NCBI RefSeq assembly: GCF_000003815.2
Contig: NC_049983.1
Coordinates: 17,390,746 to 17,454,745 of the forward strand
Direction of reading: 5' to 3'
DNA length: 64,000 nt
From: Branchiostoma floridae
Lineage: Eukaryota > Chordata > Leptocardii > Amphioxiformes > Branchiostomatidae
Positions within the stretch are counted from its first letter, which is position 1. Each line of letters opens with the position of its first letter. The notes beneath the pieces were generated by a model. That model made no database searches, had not been told where the DNA came from, and saw only the letters and a list, made by a program, of their open reading frames with translations. This document shows, piece after piece, positions 259 to 57,318 of the stretch. A program made the position numbers and the translations under genes.

Positions 259-1516
259 TTGTTCTTTACAGTGTTCTTTGCAGTGGACAGAGAACTCCGG
301 GAACAGCAAGCTGGCTTTCGACCCAAACGATCCTGCGCTGAACAAATCTTCACTCTAAGACGCATTATAGAAAAGTGCAATGAACTTCAGACCCCACTCG
401 CTATCAGCTACATTGATTTTACTAAGGCATTTGATTCCATTCATCGGCCCTCATTGCGGAACATTATGCAGATGTATGGATTGCCTCCCAAGTTGATATC
501 TGCAATCAAGGGGATTTATGCCAACTCAAGATGCTGTGTAAGGACCAGTGATGGGTACAGTGACTGGTTTGAGGTTAAGCAACGGGGGTACGTCAAGGAT
601 GTGTGCTATCACCCATTCTCTTTGCCCTCGCCATTGACTGGGTCCTATCCAAGGCAACAGACAGAAAGGGTATACAGTGGGTACAAGAACAGAAACTGTC
701 GGATCTGGATTTTGCAGTTGACATCGCCGCCCTAACAGAAACCACCCAAGAGCTCCAGCCGTTAGTAAGCGACATAGGCTCCTCAGCAGCTAGTATTGGC
801 CTTGAGATCAGTACAAAAAAGACCAAGAACATGCTGTCAGGACCCCACCCACCGACAACAGCTGTATTCATCGATCAGTATGAAGTAGAAGTGGTTGAGA
901 ATTTCACTTACCTTGGAAGTTCCATAAACAACAACGGGGAAATAGATAAAGAATTGGACTGTAGGATTGGAAAGGCCTCAGCAGCATTTAACCAACTAGG
1001 AAAGATCTGGAGGTGTAAGAAACTTTCTATTAAGATAAAACTACGCTTTTACAATAGCAACGTCCTGTCCACACTCCTCTACGGCTCTGAATCATGGAAT
1101 TTGAAAACCAGCCATGAGAAGAACCTTGACGCCTTCGACAGCAAGTGTGTGAGGAGGATCTTGGGGATCAAATGGAGTGACTTTGTCTCAAACAAAGACG
1201 TAAGAGCACAAACAAGACAACAGCCAGTGTCATCAATCATATGTAAACGACGGTTAAGCTGGCTAGGACATGTGGAACGACTCCCACCCGAGGGATTTGC
1301 TCACCAAGTTCTTCAGTGGAAACCTCAAGGTCGGAGAAAGAGGGGACGTCCTAAGATGAACTGGCAGCAGACAGTTGACAGAGATCTCCTGCCAGTGGGC
1401 AAGAGATGGAAAGATGTGTGGAGACTGGCTGTAGACAGAGCGGGCTGGAACCTTCTAACTGCCTCATGCGTCACACGACGTGGGAGCCACTAAGTAAGTC
1501 TAAGTCTAAGTAAGTT
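259..1516 (+). mobile_element. Decayed non-LTR retrotransposon (LINE), reverse transcriptase 3' part
   Basis: Two overlapping reading frames encode one broken reverse transcriptase. The first (to about 600) holds the finger/palm start with QQAGFRPKRSCAEQI and motif A as YIDFTKAFDS. The second (from 603 to the stop at 1493) holds the rest, including the thumb, the LLYGSESW block and the RRKRGRPKMNWQQ tail typical of RTE/RTEX-like endonuclease-RT elements. A frameshift near 600 separates them. The catalytic motif C, normally YADD, reads FAVD, so a metal-binding Asp is lost. The 5' end is truncated near 275, with no endonuclease domain. The stop is followed at once by TAAGT/TAAGTC short tandem repeats (1491-1516), a usual 3' tail of this class. 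The remnant is dead. The clade assignment is from motif memory and is less certain than the LINE call. Confidence 0.88.
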
Positions 1517-17200: not shown

Positions 17201-20200
17201 CATAATTAGTTGCAATATCATACAAAATAATAAAACACTAAAACTGTAAAAAATTATTGACAAAGATGTTGGAATTTTTAATCCATTCTGTTGTTGCTTT
17301 CCCAACATGTTACTGGACGTTATGCCATGGTCCACTATTGATTGTGCTTCTCAAAAAGAGCTTGGGGAATTTCCCTGGTATGTGTAAATACTGTCCATAG
17401 CATCTGTCTTCTCTGCCACAACCAGCGGAAGATCAGCTTTTCAGTGAGCCAAACTGTTTGAGATCACTTCCAAACATCTTACCTCGGGACCCATCCCCCT
17501 GGTAAAGTATTTGAGTCTGGTGAGGGTGCTCCCCAGGCTGATCTGGGGACAGTTCAGTAACACACTCAGCAGGGCGTGGGTGGCACAGGAGTTGGGAATG
17601 AGCTGAATGGGTCAGACAAAAAAAAATGAAATATTGTAAAAGAGGAAATGTTCACAGTGCTTTATTATGTACATGTACTTCTTCTTGACCTCTTTACAAT
17701 AGCCTGATTAAATCTCGGCTTATAGCAGCTTGCCCAATATCCGCTGGCCTCCTACAACTACAGCCAGTTATAGCCCCGGACAGCAGAGTTTGTGTTACAC
17801 AGCCCCCAAACTTAAACCACAGCGACCATCTCCCCGTATTACAGTAATAACCTGCAAGGCAGTTTTAACAACAAATTTAAAACCACTCTATCTTCACTGA
17901 GCCACAAAATAAAATAACCATTGACATTTCCCTTTTTAGTTAAGGTTTTACACTGTTAAAGTAATCCCTGCCCAATTACTAATTAAGTTGAACCAATAAT
18001 CACAAATACAATATATGCAAAACTGTTTCAACCATGAACTTAAAACACAACCCAAAAACCCTTTCCCATACTGCATATTTACTGTATGTAACTAGGATGT
18101 TAGATTATTATTGTTGGACATCCATAATGACCTGTTGTGCAAAGAACATGTCGTTGACGATATCTTCATCCACGACGAAGGATTCCTCCATGCTGGGCCC
18201 CACCTTCCGACGCGACCGACGTTCCTCGCTCCACTTGAACAGGAAGATGAACCCATACACGGGCCTGAGGAAGAAGATAATACATAAGGATTAATCAAAT
18301 CTATTAAAGTTAAACCCACAACTATATCAAGACTAGCTATAGCTAGCACTGTTACAACTTAATCATTTTTGGTAAGACAACGTAGTACTAAGTAGCACCT
18401 TTTTGTATTGTCAATCAGTCAAATGAACGTAAAGACATGACACAAATTGTTTAGAGGCTCATCTGTAAAAATTTTGATGACCTTCTTCTTCTTCAAAGAG
18501 TTCTTGCCTACTCGTGTTTGCTCTGTTCATCATTATCAATACCATATTTCGTAGCTACATAGAAGTTAACAAACGGCCATCCTACCCTTCAATTGGCTTG
18601 GACAGGTCATAGATTTCTTCTACCTGGACTCCTTTCACCCCTGGAAAGGTAGAAAAAAATCCACATCAAAATAAATACTAGTATTGCTACGTTAGAGAGG
18701 AGGGTGAAAATGCTTTTGATCCTTTTCATCAACTGGTACCTTTTTTAATGAAAATTATCAGTTTCTGAGTGTTTGTTTCACATAACCAGTAACCTGCCTT
18801 AGTTATAAGTTCTCATAACTGTCACCACTGTAGGTAGAATCTGCATTTAGGAATCAGGACGACTCGGACCATTACCAAGTCGGCCCATTAGAAATCTGGT
18901 CAACTCGGACCACCCCCCTGGTCAACTCGGACGAATGTCGGACAGCTCGGACCATTACCAACTCGGACCAGTCAACTCGGCCCATCTGCCGGGACAACTC
19001 GGACCATCCCCCCCCCCCCCCGACAGCTATTTCATTGATTTTTTTTTCGAACATGTAATCCCCAACACTAGTTTTATATGTATATACTCTGAAATGAGAA
19101 AACTGTAGGTTGGATTGTGTAATTCATCAGAACTTTTCGGCATTCCATGCGACGCACATTAGGTCATTGACCCCGAAATACGCAGTGTGTGTGGACAGGT
19201 GGATATATGTGAGGCGCTTCTAATAGAGGACAGTAGTAAACTTTATCATTTCTTGCTCTTCGGAATAGCTGTAGACAAATAAGATGTCAGAGAATGAGTC
19301 ATTCTTGTTGAAGATTAATTGCTAATTAAGAATTTTTTTCAAGCCGACCGTGTCCACTTTGTTTTAATATCGCCGGCGCGCGCGGCACATATGATACTAG
19401 ATGAAGACCGCCACTCTGTATGACCAGGAGACTTCTGAAGTTCTAATAGTAGCAGCTGGGAAAATCTTTATAATACTAGTACAAATGTACCAAGAAATGT
19501 CAAAAAAAAATTTTTTCAAAAGATAAGTAATTTGGTCCGACTTGTACATGGGTGGTCCGAGTTGACCAGGGGGGCGGTCCGAGTTGACCAGATTTTCAAT
19601 GGGCCGAGTTAGTAATGGTCCGAGTCGTCCTGATTCCAACTCGGACCAAGGACGTCCTTGCTCGGACCATCCCCATGGACAAGTTGGACCATCCCCATGG
19701 ACAATATTTACACAAAATGTAGCAAAGCACTCGACATGTATATATTAAGCGACGAACTCGCCGGCAGGCCTAGTCACGTCACGTCGGCCGGCTGTGTCCT
19801 GCGCAAGTTGTACATAAGCTCAAAGATACATTTATACTTAGATATACCTGGTCTTTGTGAAATGTTCTGCTTACTGAGATGATTTCCCTCAACAAACTGT
19901 TCCTATACTAGTGTATGTAGTCTGGACAAAATAAAACACAACGTTTGTTTCCGCTCATTTGCTTTTTACCTTACGAACAATGGCGGATTTTTCTATCCAA
20001 GACAAGTTCCCAGCAGCATGCACTGGGTCTCTGACCGACAACTTCTAGCTGTTAACTTTGACGTTTTTGACGTCCCAAACCGCCGGCGCTAAGGCAATCA
20101 ACGTGATTTTGAATAGACTTTTAGAGACGGCGGCTTTTTGTCAGACAACTTCTAGCTGTGACTTTGACGTCCCAAACCGCCGGCGATGGTCCGAGTTGTC

Positions 20201-21031
20201 CCGGCAGATGGGCCGAGTTGACTGGGCCGAGTTGGTAATGGTCCGAGTCATCCGACATTCCTGCATCTATAGGCCAGACTGTAAGGTTCACACCAGGAAG
20301 GACCCCTAACTCTTTTCAATTTGTGTGGCAGGATCTTTAACATGCTCAAGGTGTAACTTTCAATATGGGACCTCTAGCTTTACACAGGATGAAGGGGGTT
20401 GAAGTATTGGGCCAGTGGAGTAGAGATACATGTAGTATAAAGCTGCTTTTTTTCAGCCGGCTTGTGGTGTCATAATTCCCTTGATCGCTCCTCATTACCT
20501 TTCACTTTCAGAACAGCCCATTCTATAATCCAAGCTGTCAGAGCTGAGCACATATCAATAGATGAACTTTAAGCAGATTGCTTCACGAACTTACCAAAGT
20601 CTTCTACTAGGAGAGTGAACAACCCTGTGGAGAACAAAAGCGGGATATGCATGTAAATATTGGAGTCATTTACAAGCACATCATGATAACAAAATCATCA
20701 GAACAATTTGTTTCGTCTTTCTGTTTTTTCTGCAATTTTCCACACAAATTATTTATTGTTTCAGAACGAATACTTCTTCACAAAAACAACGCTTCCAAAT
20801 CTGCTCTTGTGTATAAAGAATGGGTATTATGGGTGAACAGGGACTTCTACATGTGTTTCGGTTAGTTTAGCTAGCGAGCGTCATCTTACTTTTCTTAGCA
20901 TGCTCAGAAAAAAAATCTGACACATCAATAATGATAAGCTATTTTTCATCTCAAAATCGCGGATAGAAGGCAATGAAACAGTTCAAATGGTTACCTGGAT
21001 CGCTCTCCAGCTCTAGCCACCCTTTGTTCAT
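11282..21031 (-). CDS. BAP1: BAP1 ubiquitin C-terminal hydrolase (Polycomb repressive deubiquitinase)
   Basis: Twelve coding exons, all phases closing: 21031-20995, 20624-20595, 18640-18586, 18264-18132, 17602-17483, 17052-16991, 16067-15925, 15414-15336, 14939-14816, 13402-12137, 11913-11821, 11500-11282. The product is 786 residues; human BAP1 has 729. The start [13 protein letters not shown] matches the human N-terminus. The UCH domain (about 1-235) keeps the Gln before [12 protein letters not shown] with its catalytic Cys, the His in EAFHFVSYV and the Asp in LFELDGLK. The 1266-nt exon holds a Lys-rich run, an acidic run, the HCF-1-binding-type site DSHNYAKSP and the conserved [19 protein letters not shown]. 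The C-terminal ULD and basic tail ([14 protein letters not shown]) mediate partner and DNA binding in the family. With ASXL proteins BAP1 removes ubiquitin from histone H2A Lys119 in the nucleus. No broken residue seen. Confidence 0.98.
13507..13579. repeat. Perfect 73-nt palindrome (36-bp arms, one-base centre)
   Basis: Arms 13507-13542 and 13544-13579 are exact reverse complements around a single C at 13543. It lies in the BAP1 intron just upstream of the 1266-nt exon. It has no loop, so it would extrude as a cruciform or form a near-loopless hairpin in the transcript. Confidence 0.95.
13757..13938. mobile_element. MITE with TAGTCTCTACCAG-type inverted ends
   Basis: Ends TAGTCTCTACCAG (13757) and CTGGTGGAGGCTA (13938) are imperfect inverted repeats. 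A second copy at 42216-42497 shares GAATAATTTGCCAGGA, CCAGAGGAGTTG and GACTGACTCCCCTGCCCAA. No coding capacity. BAP1 intron. Confidence 0.75.
14022..14164 (+). repeat. 143-bp exact duplicate (copy 1) shaped like a + strand exon
   Basis: Identical to 16471-16613 at an offset of 2449 bp. It begins with a pyrimidine-rich tract ending in CAG, then an open frame starting [15 protein letters not shown]. Both copies lie in introns of BAP1 on the opposite strand. I do not recognise the encoded peptide. Flanking sequence is unrelated outside the repeat. Confidence 0.92.
16267..16337. repeat. Perfect 25-bp inverted repeat, 21-nt loop
   Basis: Arms 16267-16291 and 16313-16337 are exact reverse complements (core GCAGTTACTCAAGCAACTGG). 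The loop repeats the TCTCCAGT motif. BAP1 intron. It could be a small fold-back element; nothing in it identifies a family. Confidence 0.9.
16471..16613 (+). repeat. 143-bp exact duplicate (copy 2)
   Basis: See 14022-14164. Sequence identity is complete by eye, and the copy again starts at the splice-acceptor-like tract. After the repeat the two frames diverge and neither continues into a recognisable protein. Confidence 0.92.
17361..17469 (+). repeat. Dispersed repeat, copy 1 (second copy 26281-26386)
   Basis: Shared blocks are GGGGAATTTCCC, CATAGCATCTGTCTTCTCT, GGAAGA and TTCAGTGAGC, ending in ATCACTT. Copy 1 abuts a BAP1 exon donor and copy 2 ends 36 bp before EBP exon 4b. Family unknown. 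Confidence 0.75.
18851..20260. mobile_element. Interleaved inverted-repeat (fold-back) block with CTCGGACC motifs
   Basis: Arm A (18851-18931) is the inverse of A' (19556-19637). Arm B (18933-19008) is the inverse of B' (20185-20260). The order A-B-A'-B' is interleaved rather than nested. All arms are built from short AACTCGGACC/GGTCCGAGTT units. Between A' and B' a block of about 45 bp (GACAACTTCTAGCTGT to AAACCGCCGGCG) occurs twice, at 20036-20090 and 20141-20184. A poly-C run sits near 19008-19020. No transposase seen. The block fills much of BAP1 intron 2. Confidence 0.8.
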
Positions 21032-21522: not shown

Positions 21523-24500
21523 ATGGCGGAAAATGTCAGCACACACCCGTACCTCCCACAGGGTCTGAAGCTCCCGTGCCGATATGTGGAGAATGACAAG
21601 TCTATCCAGGAGCTTCTGGGCGTTTTCTTCGGGCTCACAGGTGAGCATGCCGGCATATAACTTACTATAGTACACATTATCTCCTGACAAGGTAAATATT
21701 ACCCATATCAACCACGCCACTAGCAAAGCTGGTAAGGTCCTAGGAGTCATTCGGCGCAACTTGACCCATTGTCCATCTAGGGTCAAGGCCACTTGTTACA
21801 AAGCGCTGGTACGGCCTCACTTGGAATATAGTGCCATCGTCTGGGACCCGTACACCAACAAAGGGATACAGGCGGTGGAGGCCGTCCAGCGCAGGGCAGC
21901 CCGAGTGACCCTAAATGACTACCGGCAGACTAGCAGCGTGACACAAATGCTTTCAGACCTGCAGTGGCGCCCTCTCTCCGAAAGGAGGAGGAACGCCCGC
22001 CTCACCTTTTTCTATAAAGTAGTCAACAATAATATTAACATAGACGCCAGCAATATTCTGAAGCCTGCCCAAGGGCGCACCCGGGGTAGTCACGACTTCA
22101 AATATCAACACATATTTGCACGCACCGATATCTACAAACATTCTTTTTTCCCACGCACAATACCCGAGTGGAATGCCCTGCCTGGCACGGTTGTAAGTGC
22201 TCCCAACGTTGAGCACTTCCGTGCCAGGCAGGCGGCCTGCCCGCCCTAACCCGGGAGCCTCAGCTCCCCCCCCCCTACTTTTGCCCCTCGCGGGGTCATT
22301 TGGGGGTACCCTATGCAGATGCAGATATTGGTAGTGCAGGGCAGATGTAGCTACTGTGGATGTAATCATAATTAGGGGCCGAGTATGCGACCTTGTGGTA
22401 CCCCATATGTGACCTGGCCCTGCTTTATAATAGAACAAAGCTTTGAAGCCCTGGACAACCCTCAGTTACAGTCACAAACCAACCATCACAGAGGGTCTGC
22501 ATGGGGGGTCCTGACGACGATTTATGCTGAATTCAGAAGAACCCCTACTAGTACGTATTACACTAAATCAAGGAAGGCAATTACGCTAGATTTGGTCGCC
22601 TAGCTACAAATTACGTAGATAAGATGGTTTTCCCTACGAATTACGGGAAATAAAGATAGGCTCACTACGCCTTACGTAAAAGAGCATGCAGACCCTCATC
22701 ACAGTCAGCTGATCACAGAGTCCAAGGAGTGGTTGAGGAGCAGTTCCCTTGATTACAAACTCCTACTAGTGCCTATTAAACTGACAATGTCTGCTCTACT
22801 CTACTCTTACTAGTGTTAATGACGTCACTGTTTCAGCTTTGGTGATGGTGAGCACCTGGATCTACTCGGGCAGCAGTGCAAAAGTGAAGCTGTCCACGGG
22901 ACAGCGCCTGACGGTCTGCTGGTTCGTGCTATGCGGATGCATCCACTTGATCCTGGAGGGGTGGTTCAGCGTGTTCCACAACAGCATAGCTGGGGACCAG
23001 TCCTTCCTCTCACAGTTATGTAAGTGGTGGGGTATGCACCAGACGAATAACATTAATCTTGAAATGTTTGCAGTGACCTACTACTAGTATGTATATACTA
23101 GTAGATGTATAGGTCACTATTTCGCATTTTCTTTTTCGCAACAGTGCCTAGCATAAAATCATTAATACTGGTATGTGTCTTCATTTCTAGAGTTGCTTTA
23201 AAAAGTTTAAGAACATCCTTTCTCCTACTACAACTACTACAAGTGCAAAAATATTAAGTTCCCATGAATATAAACTGAATTTATAGTATACTTTTTTTGT
23301 GTACATGTAAAATCAAGGCCTTTATTGCAAGACGTGTTAAGCTTTACGCAATCAGTGACCTGTATTAGATTTAAGCCTGCAGTAGTAAAACTAAAAGTAA
23401 TTACAATTTATGATAGGTCTCCAATTTTGTTAGCTTAAACTTGCAACTATTCTGTCAGTTTGTAACTTTCCTGTTTAAATCTGTTACAGGGAAGGAGTAC
23501 AGCAAGGCAGACAGTCGTTATGTCTCGTAAGTAACATTTAAGTTGGTATCATGTGGCTTATATTGTTACCGCAGCAGTCTGATTACACATGAAACATCCG
23601 GTGTTCCCCTCCTTATGCTCTCTCCTGGATTATTTTTTTACTCAATGTAAAACACAGTTAGGACTTGCTATTGGAGTGTTGGCAGAACTGGGACTTAAGA
23701 GGGAGTAAGGACACTCTGGCTGAGTTTGAGAATTTCGAGAAAAGTGTCATGTTGCTGTACTGCACTACATTTAGCCAATCAACTTGTGATGCTGTTACTA
23801 GTAGTGCTGCTACATGTAGTCAATTACATGTGTAGCTTTAGATACAGCAGCATATATTTCTTTGAAAATCATTCTGTTTGCCAATACTAATGCTAACTTT
23901 TAAAACTTGTTGTTTCTTCCTTCTAATACTTTTTACAGCTCAATCTTATCGCTAACAGCACTCTAACATTTTGGTGTTGTATGACAGTGGTAAATCTTCA
24001 ATAAGCACTCTAACATCATTTTTAGGTCAACAACATTCACAAAGAATGTCAACATCAGTTTTTCCTATGTTGAAACTTTTCTATGTGAGGACATGCTCTC
24101 TACGGCAACTCAACACTGAGATTAGAGACTGCAGCAAGCAAGAAAGAAGATTGAAGTGCTTCCTTTTTTTCATCTTTACCTTTACCTCCAACTTGTTCCA
24201 ACCTGTGTTACACTGCAACTGCTTTAAGAAGAACAAAAGCTTTGGCTTTGTTTTTCACTTGTTGCTGACCAGACAAACCCTCCCCTAGGGCAGACACCTT
24301 CACTGTCGTCATGGAAACCGTGACCGCCTGGCTGGAGGGTCCGGGATGTTTGTTCATCGCGATGGGGTACGTCAACAACAGCCCGAACCGCTACGTCCTC
24401 CAGCTGCTCGTGTCCACCGGTCAGCTGTACGGCACCGTCCTCTACGTCGGGAACGAGGTGAAGGACGGCTTCGTCCACGGCCGGATGTGGGATCCGCTGT

Positions 24501-24646
24501 ACTTCTGGTTCTACTTTGTGGTCATCAACAGCCCCTGGGTGATCCTCCCCACCCTCCTAATGGTACAGTCCTGCGGGAAGATGGTGCAGGCACAAGCACA
24601 GATGGACAAGGCAGCACAAGTGAAGGGCAAGAAGAAGAAGAACTGA
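21523..24646 (+). CDS. EBP: Emopamil-binding protein, sterol delta8-delta7 isomerase (isoform with exon 4a)
   Basis: Exons 21523-21640, 22837-23019, 23490-23526 and 24289-24646 join in phase to give 231 residues, against 230 in human EBP. The enzyme moves the sterol double bond from C8-9 to C7-8 in late cholesterol synthesis in the ER membrane. The start MAENVSTHPYLPQGLKLP matches the short N-terminal HPYWPQ region of the human protein. Exon 2 has CIHLILEGWF with the catalytic His and Glu. Exon 4a has VVMETVTAWLEGP with the second catalytic Glu and LYFWFYFV with the membrane Trp. The C-terminus is a lysine tail (KGKKKKN), fitting an ER-retention role. AATAAA signals at 25346-25351 and 26021-26026 could end this isoform before exon 4b. 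Confidence 0.96.
21687..22380 (+). mobile_element. 5'-truncated LINE (reverse transcriptase C-terminal part)
   Basis: An uninterrupted frame to a stop at 22249 encodes the end of a CR1/L2/Crack-like RT: ATCYKALVRPHLEY, VWDPYTNKGIQAVEAVQRRA, LQWRPLSERRRNARL and HSFFPRTIPEWNALP. About 120 bp of 3' UTR with GC-rich and GCAGAT repeats follows. It lies in EBP intron 1 in the gene's orientation. The clean frame suggests a fairly recent insertion. The final codons form a strong stem (22177-22232). Confidence 0.88.
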
Positions 24647-26421
24647 GAAGCAAACGAGATGTTACCGCCTGATGAGATTCTGTTGCTTCCATTATTGATG
24701 ATCTAGCTAGTCTGTGTGGAATGGAAAATTAAAGTGAAGTTTGTCAGAAGTGCCACTTAAATTTTTATACCTGATATTGCTGATATATGTTTTTTAAGAT
24801 TGTTTTTTTTCTACCGTTGCTGTCCTGTTTGCTAATTTTTTGCAGCACTTGTTTATACTATAATAATTCATGATCACAGGCCCTAAAGCAGCATTGTAAA
24901 GAGTCATGACCGAAGGACTGTGCAACAATGGCCCATTTGTAATACATGTGGTGGCAAAATGCTCAGTTAACAGCATATCAGTTAGTGAGTTGTAGATATG
25001 CTTGTTTGGAAATCATCACAATTTTTCAGATACATGTATGTACAACATTATGTGAGTTACCTCTGTAGCAGCATCTCCTAACCCAAAGTAAATATGCATC
25101 AAGCATTAAAGCAGCTATCATGATTTGAACTGAAGTTGAATGTTCTTATGAACAAGTACCACTGGTAACTGTTTATACTAGTACTATACAGGTAAGGATA
25201 TGTTTGATACGAGTTGTTTGAAGTGTGACAATTGGATTTTCATAGAATTTAGAATGTTCCAAGGACACAAAATATTTGTCTTGCTTTTAAGTGTCTGACT
25301 GGAAAGTTCAAAGACTATTGTGATGATTGATTAGTTGGCTGTATCAATAAACTTTATAGTATCTGTAGTCAATCAATGTTTGTACCAGTCTGTATTTGTC
25401 TTAGCCTACTAAAGTATGCATACAGATCTGAATAAGACTAAGAGCTTTTTTTCTTCATTTTACCAATATGGTCAACTGCATATCACTAATGTTGGTGTCC
25501 TGGCTTTAGTTGGATCAATACCAAACTTTCCTCTAATTCTTAACAGACCTTAAGGAACAGAGGGACAAAAGTATGCTTGTTCTAACTATGAAGGTGGGAG
25601 AAAGTGTAATAGGCAACATTTTATATACAAAGCTTGTCCTTGTTCTAACCTAAGGACAATTTTCATCTTGGGAGATTGTGTTGATTTTGATCACCTTACT
25701 GTAGTACCATACATGAACATGCCTCTGAACCTGAAGATCCAGAGTTTGAATCCCAGTTGCTCACCTGACACATGCACAACTTTAGGAGGTTTCAATTTCT
25801 GTTACCGGTATCCTTTAGCCCACAAAAGAGCCTGGAGTTGAACAAGGTAAATCTTATAACTTTTGCAGTGTCTTTATTTCCTTGCTTTCAGTGACACTGC
25901 AAATATTGATTTAGTATTCACAAAATGTTCCAACACTTCTGTCCTTTTCCCACCATGATCCCTTCTTTGGTCACATATTTGTAGCAGACTTTACGAAAGT
26001 CACTGTACTTTTGCTGTGTCAATAAAGATATCTAATACCTAACCAGTACCAAATGTAAACCTTACATCCTAGTTTGTTGGATTTTTTACTACAGTGTGAA
26101 GGTGTAATAGCAATTGGTTATATCAGGATGTCTTTCTTTTTATTTTACCAGTGCATTCTATTGATTTACTGGGGAAAAATTCCAAAACAGATGTATCAAT
26201 TTGGTGTGGCTGATTAAAAAAAATTAAAAAGACTTAGTTAACATGTTTTTCTTGCCTTATACAGTGCTAGTAGGGGAATTTCCCCGGTACAAGGAACCTG
26301 TAACTACTGTACATAGCATCTGTCTTCTCTGTCACGACCAGTGGAAGACTAGGTCTTCAGTGAGCTAAACTGGATCGATATCACTTTGAAATTCCCTTTT
26401 TTTTGCCTGTACCTTCTCCAG
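24647..26421 (+). other. EBP exon 4a 3' UTR and intron before exon 4b
   Basis: AT-rich, without coding signal. It holds AATAAA at 25346-25351 and 26021-26026, and the second copy (26281-26386) of the dispersed repeat seen at 17361. Confidence 0.55.
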
Positions 26422-26770
26422 TGCGGACAACTTCACGGTTGTGATGGAGAGCATCACAGCGTTCCTGGAGGGACCGGGGTCCTTCCTGGCAGCCTGGGCC
26501 ATCCTGGAGAACAAGCCGTCCCGCTACCTCCTCCAACTCCTGGTGTCTACGGGCCAGCTCTACGGGGATATCCTGTACTACACTATAGAGTACAAGGATG
26601 GCTTCATACACGGCCCCATGTGGCACCCTCTGTACTTCTGGTTCTACTTCATGTTCCTGAACAGCTTCTGGATTGTTATTCCCTTCTGTCTGCTGGTTCA
26701 GTCCTGCGGGAAAGTTAGCCAGGCTCAGTCGGCTTTAGACAAAACTGGTGCTGGGAAGAAACGAAAGTAA
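26422..26770 (+). CDS. EBP: EBP duplicated alternative terminal exon 4b
   Basis: Follows a TTCTCCAG acceptor and begins in the same phase as exon 4a, so exon 3 (ending TC) can splice to either. Joined to exons 1-3 it gives 228 residues. It encodes the same half of the enzyme: VVMESITAFLEGP with the catalytic Glu, RYLLQLLVSTGQLYGDILYY and LYFWFYFMF, and it ends in GKKRK. Identity to exon 4a is high in the membrane segments and low in loops, for example ILENKPS against YVNNSPN. The frame is intact with all expected catalytic residues, so this is a functional duplicate rather than a relic. The alternative is that it is the last exon of a separate, 5'-truncated copy, but no further exons 1-3 lie between. 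Confidence 0.9.
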
Positions 26771-29429
26771 TTTTGTGAGACACAGCATGGTCACATGTGT
26801 GGTGGCAGGCCATTGTATGAGTTTGATGTCATACAATTTCAAATTTTAAAACATTCTGTGACATCTAAGGATCGAAGGAACGAACCAACTGCTGACATTT
26901 AAGGATAACACTCTTTGATAAAAGACAGCTCAATTTGTATGACACATTCACTTAATCTCAGTTGCAAGAACCTGTTCAATTTGGTGGTACAGCAACTATG
27001 ACATGTGACCAGGGCCTAACATAAAATAAGGTGATAGAAAGCTAGCCTAAAGGAGTGCAATTTTACATTTTTACTGAATGTGTATCTATTGCAGAAGAAA
27101 TTTTACTTCATGATTAAAAGTCATGTTTCCAAGATGTAACTTTTACAGATAATCATTGTAATCAATGATGGTGTTGATGCATTAACAATGCACCAAGAAA
27201 ATTGGAAGGGGTATTTTATGGCTTACAAAGGACTCTATTATTGTTCATAGTGAAGTGAAGGCCAACTGTAATATTATGGTAGTGATTTTATACTATCATT
27301 TCAAAACTGAGATTGTTGATACCGTAGATCAATGAGTAGGAAATTTTACATGAAGACTTGATAATTTTGATGCCATTCCATTATTGGGTGCTCCTCACCT
27401 AAGAAATTACTATCTAGTCTGTATATCAGTATCACAATCTTTCACAAATGATGAAGAATGTATTCCTTTACTGCATTTTTGGCAATGCCTCGGGGGCGAG
27501 CCAAATGGTGTATTATTCAATATTGATGTCACTATTGTACCTACCTCATATTGTAGTATGAGTGCAATCGTGACGAGAAAGTATGGGATATCATCCGAAT
27601 AAATGATTGGATTAGCGAATATTGATGTCAAACTTTTTCTCTGCGCTGAACAATAGAAAACATCTAATTGACCACAAGACGTCACCAGGCGAATTTAGAA
27701 ATAGAATGGTGTAGCAGTGATACATGTTTGATACAATTCTGCATTGGATATTTTAACAGCCACCTCTAGCAAGCAGTAAAATAAATGCTGAAAACGCCAA
27801 GGTTGCTGCACATTGATTGGTCAATTAATGCTATAGGCTAGCCGATCAGCATATAGCAGTGGATGCTGTGTGGGATATCAATAGATTTATCCGTATGTCA
27901 CACCCATTGAATGGCAAGAGGCAATTAGTTAACCAATCAGAATTTAGACTTTGGAAATCCTTTGGAATTCGTCATTCAGCTGCCAATCAACTTTAAAACA
28001 GAAAGTACATACAGGTGTTAAATTTCGTATCATTTTCCAATTTTTCCTTACTGATAGGTCGATTTATTTCATAGGACCAAGGACCAATCAGCACCGCCAT
28101 AACGATGTTTATGATAGGCTTAGTTGCAGTTCTACTTCAATCCGCTGAGTGATAGTGGCGTCCTTATACCGGCAGTAAGTTTGAGATGAGCCTCAATACG
28201 GACAACAGACATGATTAAAGCTATCTTTGACAAAGGGACAAAAGCTTAAGAGAAACCTACATGGGCAACAGATCTACCAAATGTCCAACAGTCTATGATG
28301 ATCGCCCAAGTGCAAGTCCACAATGGTTGTTGATTCGAGGTCCACTAGATTACCTGTGACTGTTCACTTAGGTACGGCAATGTATGATTGTGCTATCCTA
28401 TTTGTGTGCAGCTGGCTGGCAATTCCCATAACCAAAGCTACTTGTCGAATCTGTAGGTACCGGATGTCGAGGAGGTGAAGACACTTATCAAATGAGGCCC
28501 TGGGAAATTATGTATATATCGTCAAGTAGTATCTATGATCTTCGGCAAGAGTCTCCAGTACCTTTAGAACCGACATCAAAAAGTAAAGTGTGTGGTTCGC
28601 CTTATTTTGACAAAATTCTGAAACGTGAGAAATGCAAACTGAAATTGCATAAACAAATACTTGTAAATACATGAGAACACAAAAGGTCTCAATCCCATAC
28701 CTTATTTCCCTCATCCCATACAACAAAAGTACGAAAATGTAGATAACACATGACATGTAAGAGTGTAACACATTTAATCAATGCATCATTTGAAGCAAGT
28801 GGAAACATGAAAATACATTTACCAATGAAAGCATCAATTATCCTATGTAATCCATTTAGAATTACCCCTTCTAAATTATTCTACACATGTGGGGTATCTT
28901 ATCTTACATCCTATATTGATTTCATACAATTGCTCAACCTTCGATGTTGATGGACCAAGAAGAAGAGAGGGAAGTAACGTTTTTAAAGTAAAATTTCTGC
29001 AGCATTGTCATTTATTTCTTTGATAAGGTTCAGCTTAGTCTAAAACAATGTTGTCTCACCAAATTCTAAACCAGAATGGCTTGCTTTAATAGCGCAGCTT
29101 AAGAGACTTTTAAGAGAATTTGAAATAGACCGGTACGTCGGCCGTCCAGGCTTTCTTTTCTTCCGAACCTTTTCTTCTGCTAACTTTTTGTGCTGCTATC
29201 ACAATTTTTCCATTACACCAATTGCACACTTTTGAATGTTTTCATTCATTTTTCCTCCCTCCAAACGATCTGTCTTGGTTCGTCAAGTCGAAGTTTTGAC
29301 CAGGAACAACGGTAGCAACAACCTACACATCAGAACGATTCAAACATTGACATTAACAAATACATGTAATGTACTAGAATGAAGCAAACCGAAAACACAT
29401 TGTATTGACGCATGGACTAACATTACACT
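26771..29429. other. EBP 3' UTR, intergenic, and 3' UTR of the next minus-strand gene
   Basis: No exon recognised. Possible EBP polyadenylation signals are AATAAA near 27595 and 27779. On the minus strand AATAAA at 29011-29016 fits the end of the convergent gene at 29430. Confidence 0.45.
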
Positions 29430-44682: not shown

Positions 44683-55239
<10,557 letters not shown>

Positions 55240-55407
55240 AAAAGCTACCCCTCGCGGCGTCTGCTAAGTAGGCTAACCTAGTGACGTCATTATGGCCACG
55301 ACTTCACCAAGATGGCCGACAAGTGTCTGAGATTTTGATGTTCAGACGCTAATCTTCGATTCTCCGCGTCACACTTGAGTTTTTCCGGAGTTCCTGAGGA
55401 AAGCAGC
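55240..55407. promoter_or_regulatory. Compact bidirectional MBD4/TMEM115 promoter
   Basis: Only 168 bp lie between the divergent ATG codons. A perfect CRE, TGACGTCA, is at 55282-55289 and a YY1-type CAAGATGGCC is at about 55308-55317. Both motifs are common in housekeeping bidirectional promoters. Binding is inferred. Confidence 0.8.
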
Positions 55408-57318
55408 ATGTCTAATGCACTTGTGAACCGTTATCTGCCGGTGGCACGGCAGCATTTCGTCACCACGCTGACGAACACCAGTGTTGTCGTGAAGGCCGTG
55501 TGCGCTGTCGTCTGTCTCAGTTACCTGGTTTCCCTGGGAGTCGAACTTGTCGAACCGTTAAGCATAAACCCTGGGTTTCTCATCCCCTCCACCTTCAGGG
55601 TCTGGACTCTACTGACTCATGGCTTACTGGAGACGCAGATACTGCACGTCGCCATCAGTATAACGGCCGTGGTTGTGGCGGGAAAACTACTGGAACCCAT
55701 ATGGGGTGCTCTAGAACTCCTCATCTTCCTGACTCTCGTTACCATAGTAACTGGCATATTCTCTGCGTTCTTCTACCTTTTCGTGTACATGGCCACGTCA
55801 GATGACTCCTACATCTTTGAGGTACACATATACGGTTTGACTGGGTTCGCGGCCGGCGTCTGCGTAGCTTTGAAGCAGACGAGACCGGACCAGGTGCTAG
55901 TACCATCTGTGGACCTGCGTGTGAAACACATACCACTCCTGCTACTGGTCGGGTCCATCCTGCTGAAAGTGGCCACCCTCACGACCGGGACCTACCCCGT
56001 TATGACCGGCATGGGGATCCTGTCCAGCTGGATCTACCTGCGCTTCTACCAGCAGCACGGGAACCAGGGGAAGGGAGACATGGGCGACGTTTTCACCTTC
56101 GCCACCTTCTTCCCCGAACCCGTGCAGGCTCCGATCGCCATACTAGCGAACACGGTGTACAGCGGACTGGTGAAGATCAAGGTGTGTAAGAAAACGGTGA
56201 AGAGGTACGACGTGGGAGCGCCATCCTCCATCACCATCAGTCTACCCGGCACCGACCCTGCTGATGCTGAGAGAAGAAGGTGAGAGGTGAAGGGTGAGAG
56301 GTCATGTTGGTCTCAGTTCAAGGTGTTTGCTGGGGCTCTGGTACACTTTTTGAATAAGCTGGCTCATGATGTAGACTGTTCATGCACAGCAAGCTGCATT
56401 GAGGGTAATATGTAAAAGTTGAAGGTGCCCGAGACATAAACACCTCTGATTGCTCTGAACATCATAATGGTATCAAGCATGGTCTAGACAAATATTTACA
56501 AGTTAGGGGCCTTCACATTATATATTTTGCCACCTTGCTGCCATTAATCAGTTTCAACCACTTTCCAGTAGAGACAAACTCCTTCTAGTATTTATCAACA
56601 AAATCAGAACCGACTGAACGTGCCACGCCCTATCTGGGGAGGATACTTGTTACAGCTTACTCAATGAGCACATTTTTTTCTTCGCAAATATACATGTTTG
56701 GTATCAGCCTGGGAAAAAATTATTGCAGGAAACACACCAAATCAACAGGCACCACAGCACAATTCATTCCATAACACACCTTCCAGTTCTGAATGGCTTG
56801 CCCACTGTCAAGCACAGTGCCAAGATTTCTTCGAGAATTTTCCCCGCTTCTTTATTGTCTTACCTTGTTTCTACTATCCCATTCTTCTTGCAGTATTTCA
56901 AGAGCAAACCAACATCTAACCAGTCTTAAGCCTTGCCTAGTAAATTTGTAATTGGTCGTTTACAGCTAGCATTGCCATGGAGTTTGATTACATGTACTAT
57001 TTTCCTTTTTTCTTACTACACAGGAAAAAAGCCCTGCAAGCCCTGAATGAACGCCTGAGCAAGGTGCAACAGCCAGAAGAAGAGGAAGGGGATTGGCCTG
57101 CCATGGAAGAAGTTGCTCCCGACAGCGTAGTTGTAGATGTAGAGGCAGACAAGAAAAAGGTCCCCACGCCTCACAGAAGTCCGGGCTCTTCCCCACAAGT
57201 TACCCCCGCACGAGCTGCTAGTCCGGAGCCTGCAAACAGCCCCGCCAATATGCCCAACGGTCCCACCAATTTTAAAAATGGTGGAAACAAATCACCACCA
57301 GGGGAAGGCCCAAGTTAA
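55408..57318 (+). CDS. TMEM115: TMEM115, Golgi rhomboid-like membrane protein
   Basis: Two coding exons, 55408-56279 and 57024-57318, joined at AG/G, give 388 residues; human TMEM115 has 351. The start MSNALVNRYLPVARQHF is the first true ATG after a TTG-led extension. Several membrane segments follow (SVVVKAVCAVVCLSYLVSLG, HVAISITAVVVAGKLLEP, ELLIFLTLVTIVTGIFSAFF), and the signature KTVKRYDVGAPSSITISL with GTDPADAERRR is nearly identical to human. The C-terminal exon is acidic then Pro/Ser-rich and cytosolic. The family sits in the Golgi, has a rhomboid-like fold without protease residues, and affects retrograde transport. AATAAA at 57372-57377 lies 54 bp after the stop. Confidence 0.97.

Follow-up and report, generated by a model that had tools for sequence, protein, structure and literature searches.

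The known system closest to the lancelet gene is human EBP (3-beta-hydroxysteroid delta8,delta7-isomerase; 6oht and 6ohu). The residues essential in the human enzyme have been listed (PMC4263179) and comprise the catalytic triad (His76, Glu80 and Glu122) together with 8 other residues from an alanine scan; D162H is listed in the same source as a CDPX2 mutation, and the dimer interface is formed by TM3-TM5 (PMC6549186). A Branchiostoma floridae EBP-family sequence is also stated to be included in a supplementary figure of PMC4263179.

As a splicing arrangement, the exchange of C-terminal exons that arose by tandem duplication is well known in type. C-termini are swapped in 77 of 236 human tandem-exon events (PMC9741552), and these share with the locus described here homologous tandem exons, alternative C-termini and ligand-binding residues that are conserved above the rest. 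They differ in that the lancelet swap takes in half of a membrane enzyme, including one residue of the triad and the equivalent of the human dimer interface, and in that for the lancelet gene we infer the use of both exons from the DNA. GNAO1 carries a mutually exclusive final exon pair (7-8) that likewise reflects a local duplication of the 3'-end of the gene and gives two C-terminal versions, although the unit there is two exons of a G protein, whereas in lancelet EBP it is one terminal exon of an enzyme (PMC5896119). As predicted for lancelet EBP, enzyme isoforms are produced by homologous exons in KHK, where the swapped part retains a catalytic residue, a conserved arginine (PMC9741552), and tandem, mutually exclusive terminal exons are found in the Drosophila sulfotransferase gene pip, which differs in having eight clusters, in being its authors' UTR example and in encoding an unrelated enzyme (PMC9013439). 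No description of amphioxus EBP or of its alternative last exons was found among the matches listed for titles and abstract beginnings of the open-licence PMC literature, and a search for an Anopheles GST precedent, including passages of PMC4195677, gave no confirmation.

Layout of the gene and its two last exons

The window, i.e. the whole stretch of DNA that was analysed, is 64,000 nt long. It was confirmed to contain a single gene for EBP (sterol delta8-delta7 isomerase), in which exons 1-3 are followed by two homologous terminal exons, 4a and 4b. Its coding exons are as follows (residues in human numbering).

21523..21640, + strand: EBP exon 1, coding part from the ATG at 21523; 39 codons plus 1 base; donor CAG/GTGAGC; one match in the assembly
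22837..23019, + strand: EBP exon 2; catalytic-triad residues His76 and Glu80; donor TAT/GTAAGT; one match in the assembly
23490..23526, + strand: EBP exon 3, 37 nt; Y104, D108, R110 and Y111; split codon TC at its end; donor CTC/GTAAGT
24289..24646, + strand: exon 4a, alternative last exon; stop after 118 codons; TM3-TM5 as aligned with human EBP; KKKKN tail; T162, D181 and C133
26422..26770, + strand: exon 4b, alternative last exon; stop after 115 codons; TM3-TM5 as aligned with human EBP; KKRK tail; D162, H181 and S133, as in human EBP

Both last exons lie behind AG acceptors, CCCCTAG/GGCAGAC at 24289 and TTCTCCAG/TGCGGAC at 26422, and either join completes the split codon of exon 3 as Ser (TC + G or TC + T). 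The spliced frames were open to their own stops over 696 nt with 4a and 687 nt with 4b, giving isoforms of 231 and 228 residues, of which 118 and 115, respectively, come from the last exon. The portion exchanged is the terminal half of the enzyme, whereas the homologous exons of KHK are internal. Given how often stops occur in the DNA that separates 4a from 4b, a 115-codon open frame would be expected by chance with P ~0.0008. Both exons encode Glu122 and the YFWFYF segment and have a lysine-rich tail, and the pair shows the features of alternative last exons, being homologous and in tandem, with equal acceptor phase and separate stops. The sequence-only reading had described 4a and 4b as tandem, intact exons behind acceptors of the same phase, each with the catalytic Glu, an FWFYF segment, a basic tail and a stop, and had proposed that about half of the enzyme, including one catalytic residue, is swapped; this description of the coding sequence was borne out.

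Both isoforms matched EXPERA (PF05241) well above its gathering cut-off of 25.7, at 90.4 bits for isoform a and 95.8 bits for isoform b, and the Pfam EBP profile matched even the single exons (E = 1.8e-20 for 4a and 2.5e-22 for 4b). Human EBP (6oht) aligned over nearly the full length (E = 5.6e-73 and 1e-75 for isoforms a and b, respectively) and was the only strong match of both among solved structures. By these matches among solved structures, and with the other PF05241 loci of the assembly scoring lower, the predicted proteins class as EBP rather than EBPL or TMEM97. As in the human enzyme, all 11 listed essential residues and the lysine-rich tail were found in both isoforms; unlike the human gene, the lancelet gene has two last coding exons. 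The alignment spans the five TM helices of human EBP, but a hydropathy scan gave 4 helix-like peaks above threshold per isoform, not 5. In the helix layout predicted from the alignment, exons 1-3 would provide TM1, TM2, helix H1 and His76/Glu80, and exon 4 would provide Glu122, Thr125, Asn193 and Trp196, the lysine-rich tail, and TM3-TM5, where the dimer interface would lie; the aligned TM3-TM5 also include part of the pocket in human EBP.

The reading that we prefer, to which we assign a probability of roughly 0.77, is that of one EBP gene whose terminal exon was duplicated in tandem, with 4a and 4b chosen by splicing competition, 4b encoding the canonical isomerase and 4a a modified isoform. 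The gene is probably capable of giving rise to two enzyme forms with a common first half and different second halves. Should 4a and 4b both be in use, a single animal gene would encode two forms of a late cholesterol-synthesis enzyme. These would diverge across the dimer interface and at D162, a position of human disease, while retaining the known catalytic residues, and would constitute a natural experiment on the parts of EBP that matter outside the active site.

Copy number of the upstream exons

Exons 1-3 had been taken in the sequence-only reading to be common to 4a and 4b, and the searches upheld this single-gene reading. No second set of exons 1-3 was found within the window, and exons 1 and 2 each matched one place in the whole assembly of 513,431,437 bases in 431 contigs (4 of 4 candidates scored; exon 3 is too short for a match of its own). 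In a family search of the same 513-Mb assembly, in which 8 of 8 candidates were scored, no EBP-type exon 4 was found besides 4a and 4b. The other PF05241 loci of the assembly, which we take to be EBPL-like and TMEM97-like, scored lower, at best 41.8 bits. Beyond this assembly, none of the 42 stretches of viral contigs or the 338 stretches of genome contigs that fitted the search pattern was an EBP relative.

These results bear on the alternative that 4b is part of another, independent EBP gene whose exons 1-3 were lost or collapsed in the assembly. Tandem gene duplication is a frequent route, and near-identical exons can collapse in assemblies; nevertheless, we consider this very improbable, given that only 1.8 kb separates 4a from 4b, that there is no further copy of exons 1-3 in the window, that exon 1 and exon 2 each match the assembly at a single place, and that the open frame of 4b has no Met before residue 121, so that 4b on its own would be without His76 and Glu80. 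A haplotype or assembly duplicate was also considered as the origin of the pair and was rejected, the DNA of 4a and 4b being only 69% alike (302 aligned bases) and the similarity stopping ~10 nt upstream of the acceptors.

Acceptors, candidate poly(A) signals and predicted exon choice

The signals around the two last exons were scored as follows, with a crude acceptor measure by which both AGs that outscore that of 4b (26151 and 25891) lie at no known exon.

24269..24288, + strand: 4a acceptor; weak pyrimidine tract; 47 of the 197 AGs in 23527-26800 equal or better, its own AG counted
26402..26421, + strand: 4b acceptor; strong pyrimidine tract; 3 of the 197 AGs in 23527-26800 equal or better, its own AG counted
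25346..25351, + strand: candidate poly(A) signal for 4a, AATAAA; another AATAAA at 26021, ATTAAA at 24728 and 25105; count near chance
27598..27603, + strand: candidate poly(A) signal for 4b, the first AATAAA after it; another AATAAA at 27780, ATTAAA at 27113; count near chance

The 4a acceptor region contains an additional AG 16 nt upstream. A weak proximal and a strong distal acceptor would suit competition between 4a and 4b, in which joins from 23526 to 24289 and from 23526 to 26422 would both be used. Joining of the exon 3 donor to 4a would lead to the stop and 3' UTR of that exon; where the weak 4a acceptor is skipped and transcription continues, the donor would be joined to the stronger 4b acceptor. 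Either choice would yield a full-length enzyme. The AATAAA hexamers at 25346 and 26021 both lie upstream of the 4b acceptor and could therefore serve 4a only. As evidence for 3' ends the hexamers are weak, with AATAAA seen 2 times between 4a and 4b (1.3 expected) and 2 times in the 1230 nt after 4b (1.4 expected), and ATTAAA 4 times between 4a and 4b (1.6 expected).

No clear selector of 4a versus 4b emerged from regulator motifs or from flank complementarity. The flanks, scored for an RNA-pairing selector, paired at 16 of 20 positions, a level that 8 of 100 shuffles also attained. Within intron 3, upstream of 4a, (A/T)CTAA(C/T) was observed 4 times (1.5 expected) and YCAY 7 times (13 expected); the counts of the other splicing-regulator motifs scanned were near expectation.

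A scan of the 200 GTs that lie between exon 3 and 4b gave two donor-like sites with a score of 8/9 (25192 and 25847), and from either of them 4b might be reached via an intron in the 3' UTR of the 4a transcript, leaving 4b untranslated and the mRNA a target for decay. Such an arrangement would leave both the selection on the 4b reading frame and its matching acceptor phase unexplained, and we regard it as extremely unlikely.

Divergence between 4a and 4b

The two exons are an old duplication with both copies under selection, as judged from 71 identical residues among the 115 aligned (44 different), a dN of 0.30 and a dS of 1.76; dN/dS was 0.17, a value that is approximate since this dS is close to saturation. 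Over the first 107 codons, differences at the three codon positions numbered 31, 21 and 55. Had one copy been neutral throughout, a dN of at least ~0.88 would be expected, and of 2000 copies taken to the same depth by simulated neutral decay (substitutions only), 1% were stop-free, with a mean identity of 20%. The pairwise test would allow one copy to have escaped selection for as much as roughly one-third of the time since duplication. A relative-rate count gave no imbalance (11 sites versus 8; chi-square 0.47), so 4a is not faster evolving overall, and identity to human EBP was similar (56/117 for 4a and 58/115 for 4b).

Relaxed selection on either exon over the final third of that time would fit a history in which a single terminal exon, probably 4b, is in use and the second one is a duplicate that is turning into a pseudogene. 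The weaker acceptor of 4a and its departure from human EBP at D162, H181 and S133, where 4b does not depart, point the same way. However, neither frame is broken and each retains the 4 essential residues listed for exon 4, the low dN/dS at this depth and the neutral simulation oppose long neutrality of either copy, and the likeness to human EBP is equal; we therefore hold this history to be improbable.

With human EBP as the sole comparison, 4b keeps D162, H181 and S133, and 4a has T, D and C at these positions. Since D162 is also the site of the human disease mutation, 4b looks canonical and 4a modified, and under the preferred reading the two would divide their roles in this way. The sequence-only reading had raised a possible difference in sterol or ligand preference between the isoforms. 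The catalytic and ligand residues listed for exon 4 (E122, T125, N193 and W196) are identical in 4a and 4b, so the known active site gives no reason to expect a different reaction; the 4a changes most likely tune activity, stability or dimer pairing, not the reaction. We advance only tentatively, as rather doubtful, the more specific proposal that the EBP encoded with 4a is non-canonical or of low activity and forms dimers with the 4b isoform via TM3-TM5, splice choice setting the dimer make-up; if this were true, dimer make-up would tune sterol isomerisation or ligand response. Redundant use of both exons, the difference lying only in control of expression by their distinct 3' UTRs, would agree with the sameness of the 11 listed essential residues and with the even rates, but sits poorly with the 44 of 115 residues that differ, D162 among them, and is in our view unlikely, if less than remote.

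Orthologs of Chinese and Florida lancelets, which split ~120 Myr ago, have a mean identity of 81.2% in protein and 79.5% in CDS (PMC4284660). This exceeds the identity between 4a and 4b in both residues and DNA, and both exons are therefore predicted in both species.

Exon structure and copy number of EBP

The sterol delta8-delta7 isomerase gene EBP comprises three shared exons followed by two tandem, homologous last exons, 4a and 4b.

Exons of lancelet EBP (window coordinates)
Exon 1: 21523-21640, start codon at 21523
Exon 2: 22837-23019
Exon 3: 23490-23526
Exon 4a: 24289-24646, with its own stop
Exon 4b: 26422-26770, with its own stop

Translation of the spliced frames gave a 231-residue protein from exons 1-3 plus 4a (isoform a) and a 228-residue protein from exons 1-3 plus 4b (isoform b), each running to the stop of its own last exon. 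Exon 3 ends with the first two bases of a codon, TC, and joining to either last exon completes it as Ser; the donors of exons 1, 2 and 3 match 8/9, 7/9 and 7/9 consensus positions, respectively. The splice anatomy proposed in the sequence-only reading, with exons 1-3 able to join either 4a or 4b and each frame open to its own stop, was correct.

That reading's claim of alternative last exons in one gene also withstood a search for an independent set of exons 1-3 feeding 4b. No second copy of exons 1-3 was found within the window, and the exons 1-3 protein matched the assembly at two places, the window's own exons 1 and 2 (exon 3 is too short to match alone). Searching the 513-Mb assembly with Pfam EXPERA (PF05241) gave seven matches (8/8 candidates scored; for large families such counts are lower bounds), the top two being 4b and 4a. 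The other five were weaker and fell into two sites, one each on contigs C11 and C12, where the open reading frames are presumably TMEM97-like and EBPL-like.

Identity of the isoforms and residues that differ

Both isoforms matched human EBP (6oht), isoform a over residues 7-231 (E 5.6e-73) and isoform b over residues 7-224 (E 1e-75), with EXPERA scores of 90.4 and 95.8 bits (cut-off 25.7). Residues shared with human EBP number 53/106 for exons 1-3, 56/117 for 4a and 58/115 for 4b. As a simple hydropathy scan gave four helix-like peaks per isoform, not five, the predicted five-helix layout of both isoforms rests on alignment to human EBP. By this alignment, transmembrane helices TM3-TM5 fall in exon 4; human EBP dimerises through these helices, and mutations at that interface slowed growth in a yeast complementation assay (PMC6549186).

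Both isoforms retain all 11 residues that are listed as essential in human EBP on the basis of alanine scanning (PMC4263179), seven in exons 1-3 and E122, T125, N193 and W196 (human numbering) in exon 4. At positions 116, 133, 162 and 181, 4b carries the human residues (N, S, D and H), whereas 4a has T, C, T and D; human CDPX2 mutations include D162H and S133R (PMC4263179). For the 12 listed disease positions in exon 4, 11 are retained in 4b and nine in 4a, D206 being Gln in both. Across exon 4, human EBP agrees with 4b only at 11 sites and with 4a only at eight, an asymmetry that is not significant.

Selection, age and proposed splice choice

Exons 4a and 4b share 71/115 residues, with Nei-Gojobori values of dN 0.30 and dS 1.76; the ratio, 0.17, is approximate because dS is near saturation. 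Had one copy been unselected throughout, a dN of at least about 0.88 would be expected, and the value seen permits selection-free time on one copy of at most about a third. In a substitutions-only simulation of neutral decay to half of dS, 1% of 2000 copies stayed stop-free and mean identity was 20%. Judged from these comparisons, selection is acting on both exons.

DNA similarity between 4a and 4b stops about 10 nt upstream of the acceptors, so the duplication is old. Since the two exons are nearer each other than either is to human, it would most simply be placed in the lancelet line, after the split from vertebrates. The reported mean protein identity of Chinese and Florida lancelet orthologs, 81.2% (PMC4284660), exceeds that between 4a and 4b, an indication that the pair already existed when these two lancelets diverged.

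At the 4a acceptor the pyrimidine tract is weak (of the 197 AGs in 23527-26800, 47 score equal or better, itself included), and a second AG lies 16 nt upstream; splicing at that AG would put a stop codon in frame no more than a few codons on. The 4b acceptor ranks in the top three of the 197, and the two AGs outscoring it sit at no known exon. Pairing a weak proximal with a strong distal terminal exon is a common arrangement, where the outcome depends on factors or elongation speed; the choice between 4a and 4b would most likely be decided in this way. AATAAA occurs downstream of both exons at near-chance frequency (2 versus 1.3 and 2 versus 1.4 expected). Between 4a and 4b, donor-like sites at 25192 and 25847 (+) each match 8/9 consensus positions; a 3' UTR intron in 4a transcripts, using these, is possible.

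Known cases and other features of the window

Lancelet EBP would be a further case of a kind already described. Among human tandem duplicated exon events, C-termini are swapped in 77/236, and small-ligand-binding residues are more conserved (PMC9741552); in GNAO1 the final exon pair is mutually exclusive (PMC5896119), and the Drosophila sulfotransferase gene pip has tandem terminal exons, its authors' UTR example (PMC9013439). No report of EBP with such last exons appeared among the matches listed in open-licence papers, which is not proof of absence, and both isoforms may already be in public gene annotations.

The Pfam scan covered 6/8 of the window's long open frames. Other features are as follows.

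Other features of the window
579-1493 (+): 304-aa frame with an RVT_1 reverse transcriptase domain (E 2.1e-11) and DUF6451; by its domains, it is a retroelement piece
19540-20260, upstream of EBP: repeated GGTCCGAGTTG-type motif, likely a repeat element
21671-22249 (+), within EBP intron 1: 192-aa frame that by eye looks like the terminal part of a LINE-type reverse transcriptase protein; no Pfam match at E 0.001
51002-52873 (-): 623-aa frame, its first part like a methyl-CpG-binding domain by eye; no Pfam match at E 0.001
55339-56283 (+): 314-aa frame with DUF1751 (eukaryotic integral membrane family; E 1.3e-23), which we take to be TMEM115-like
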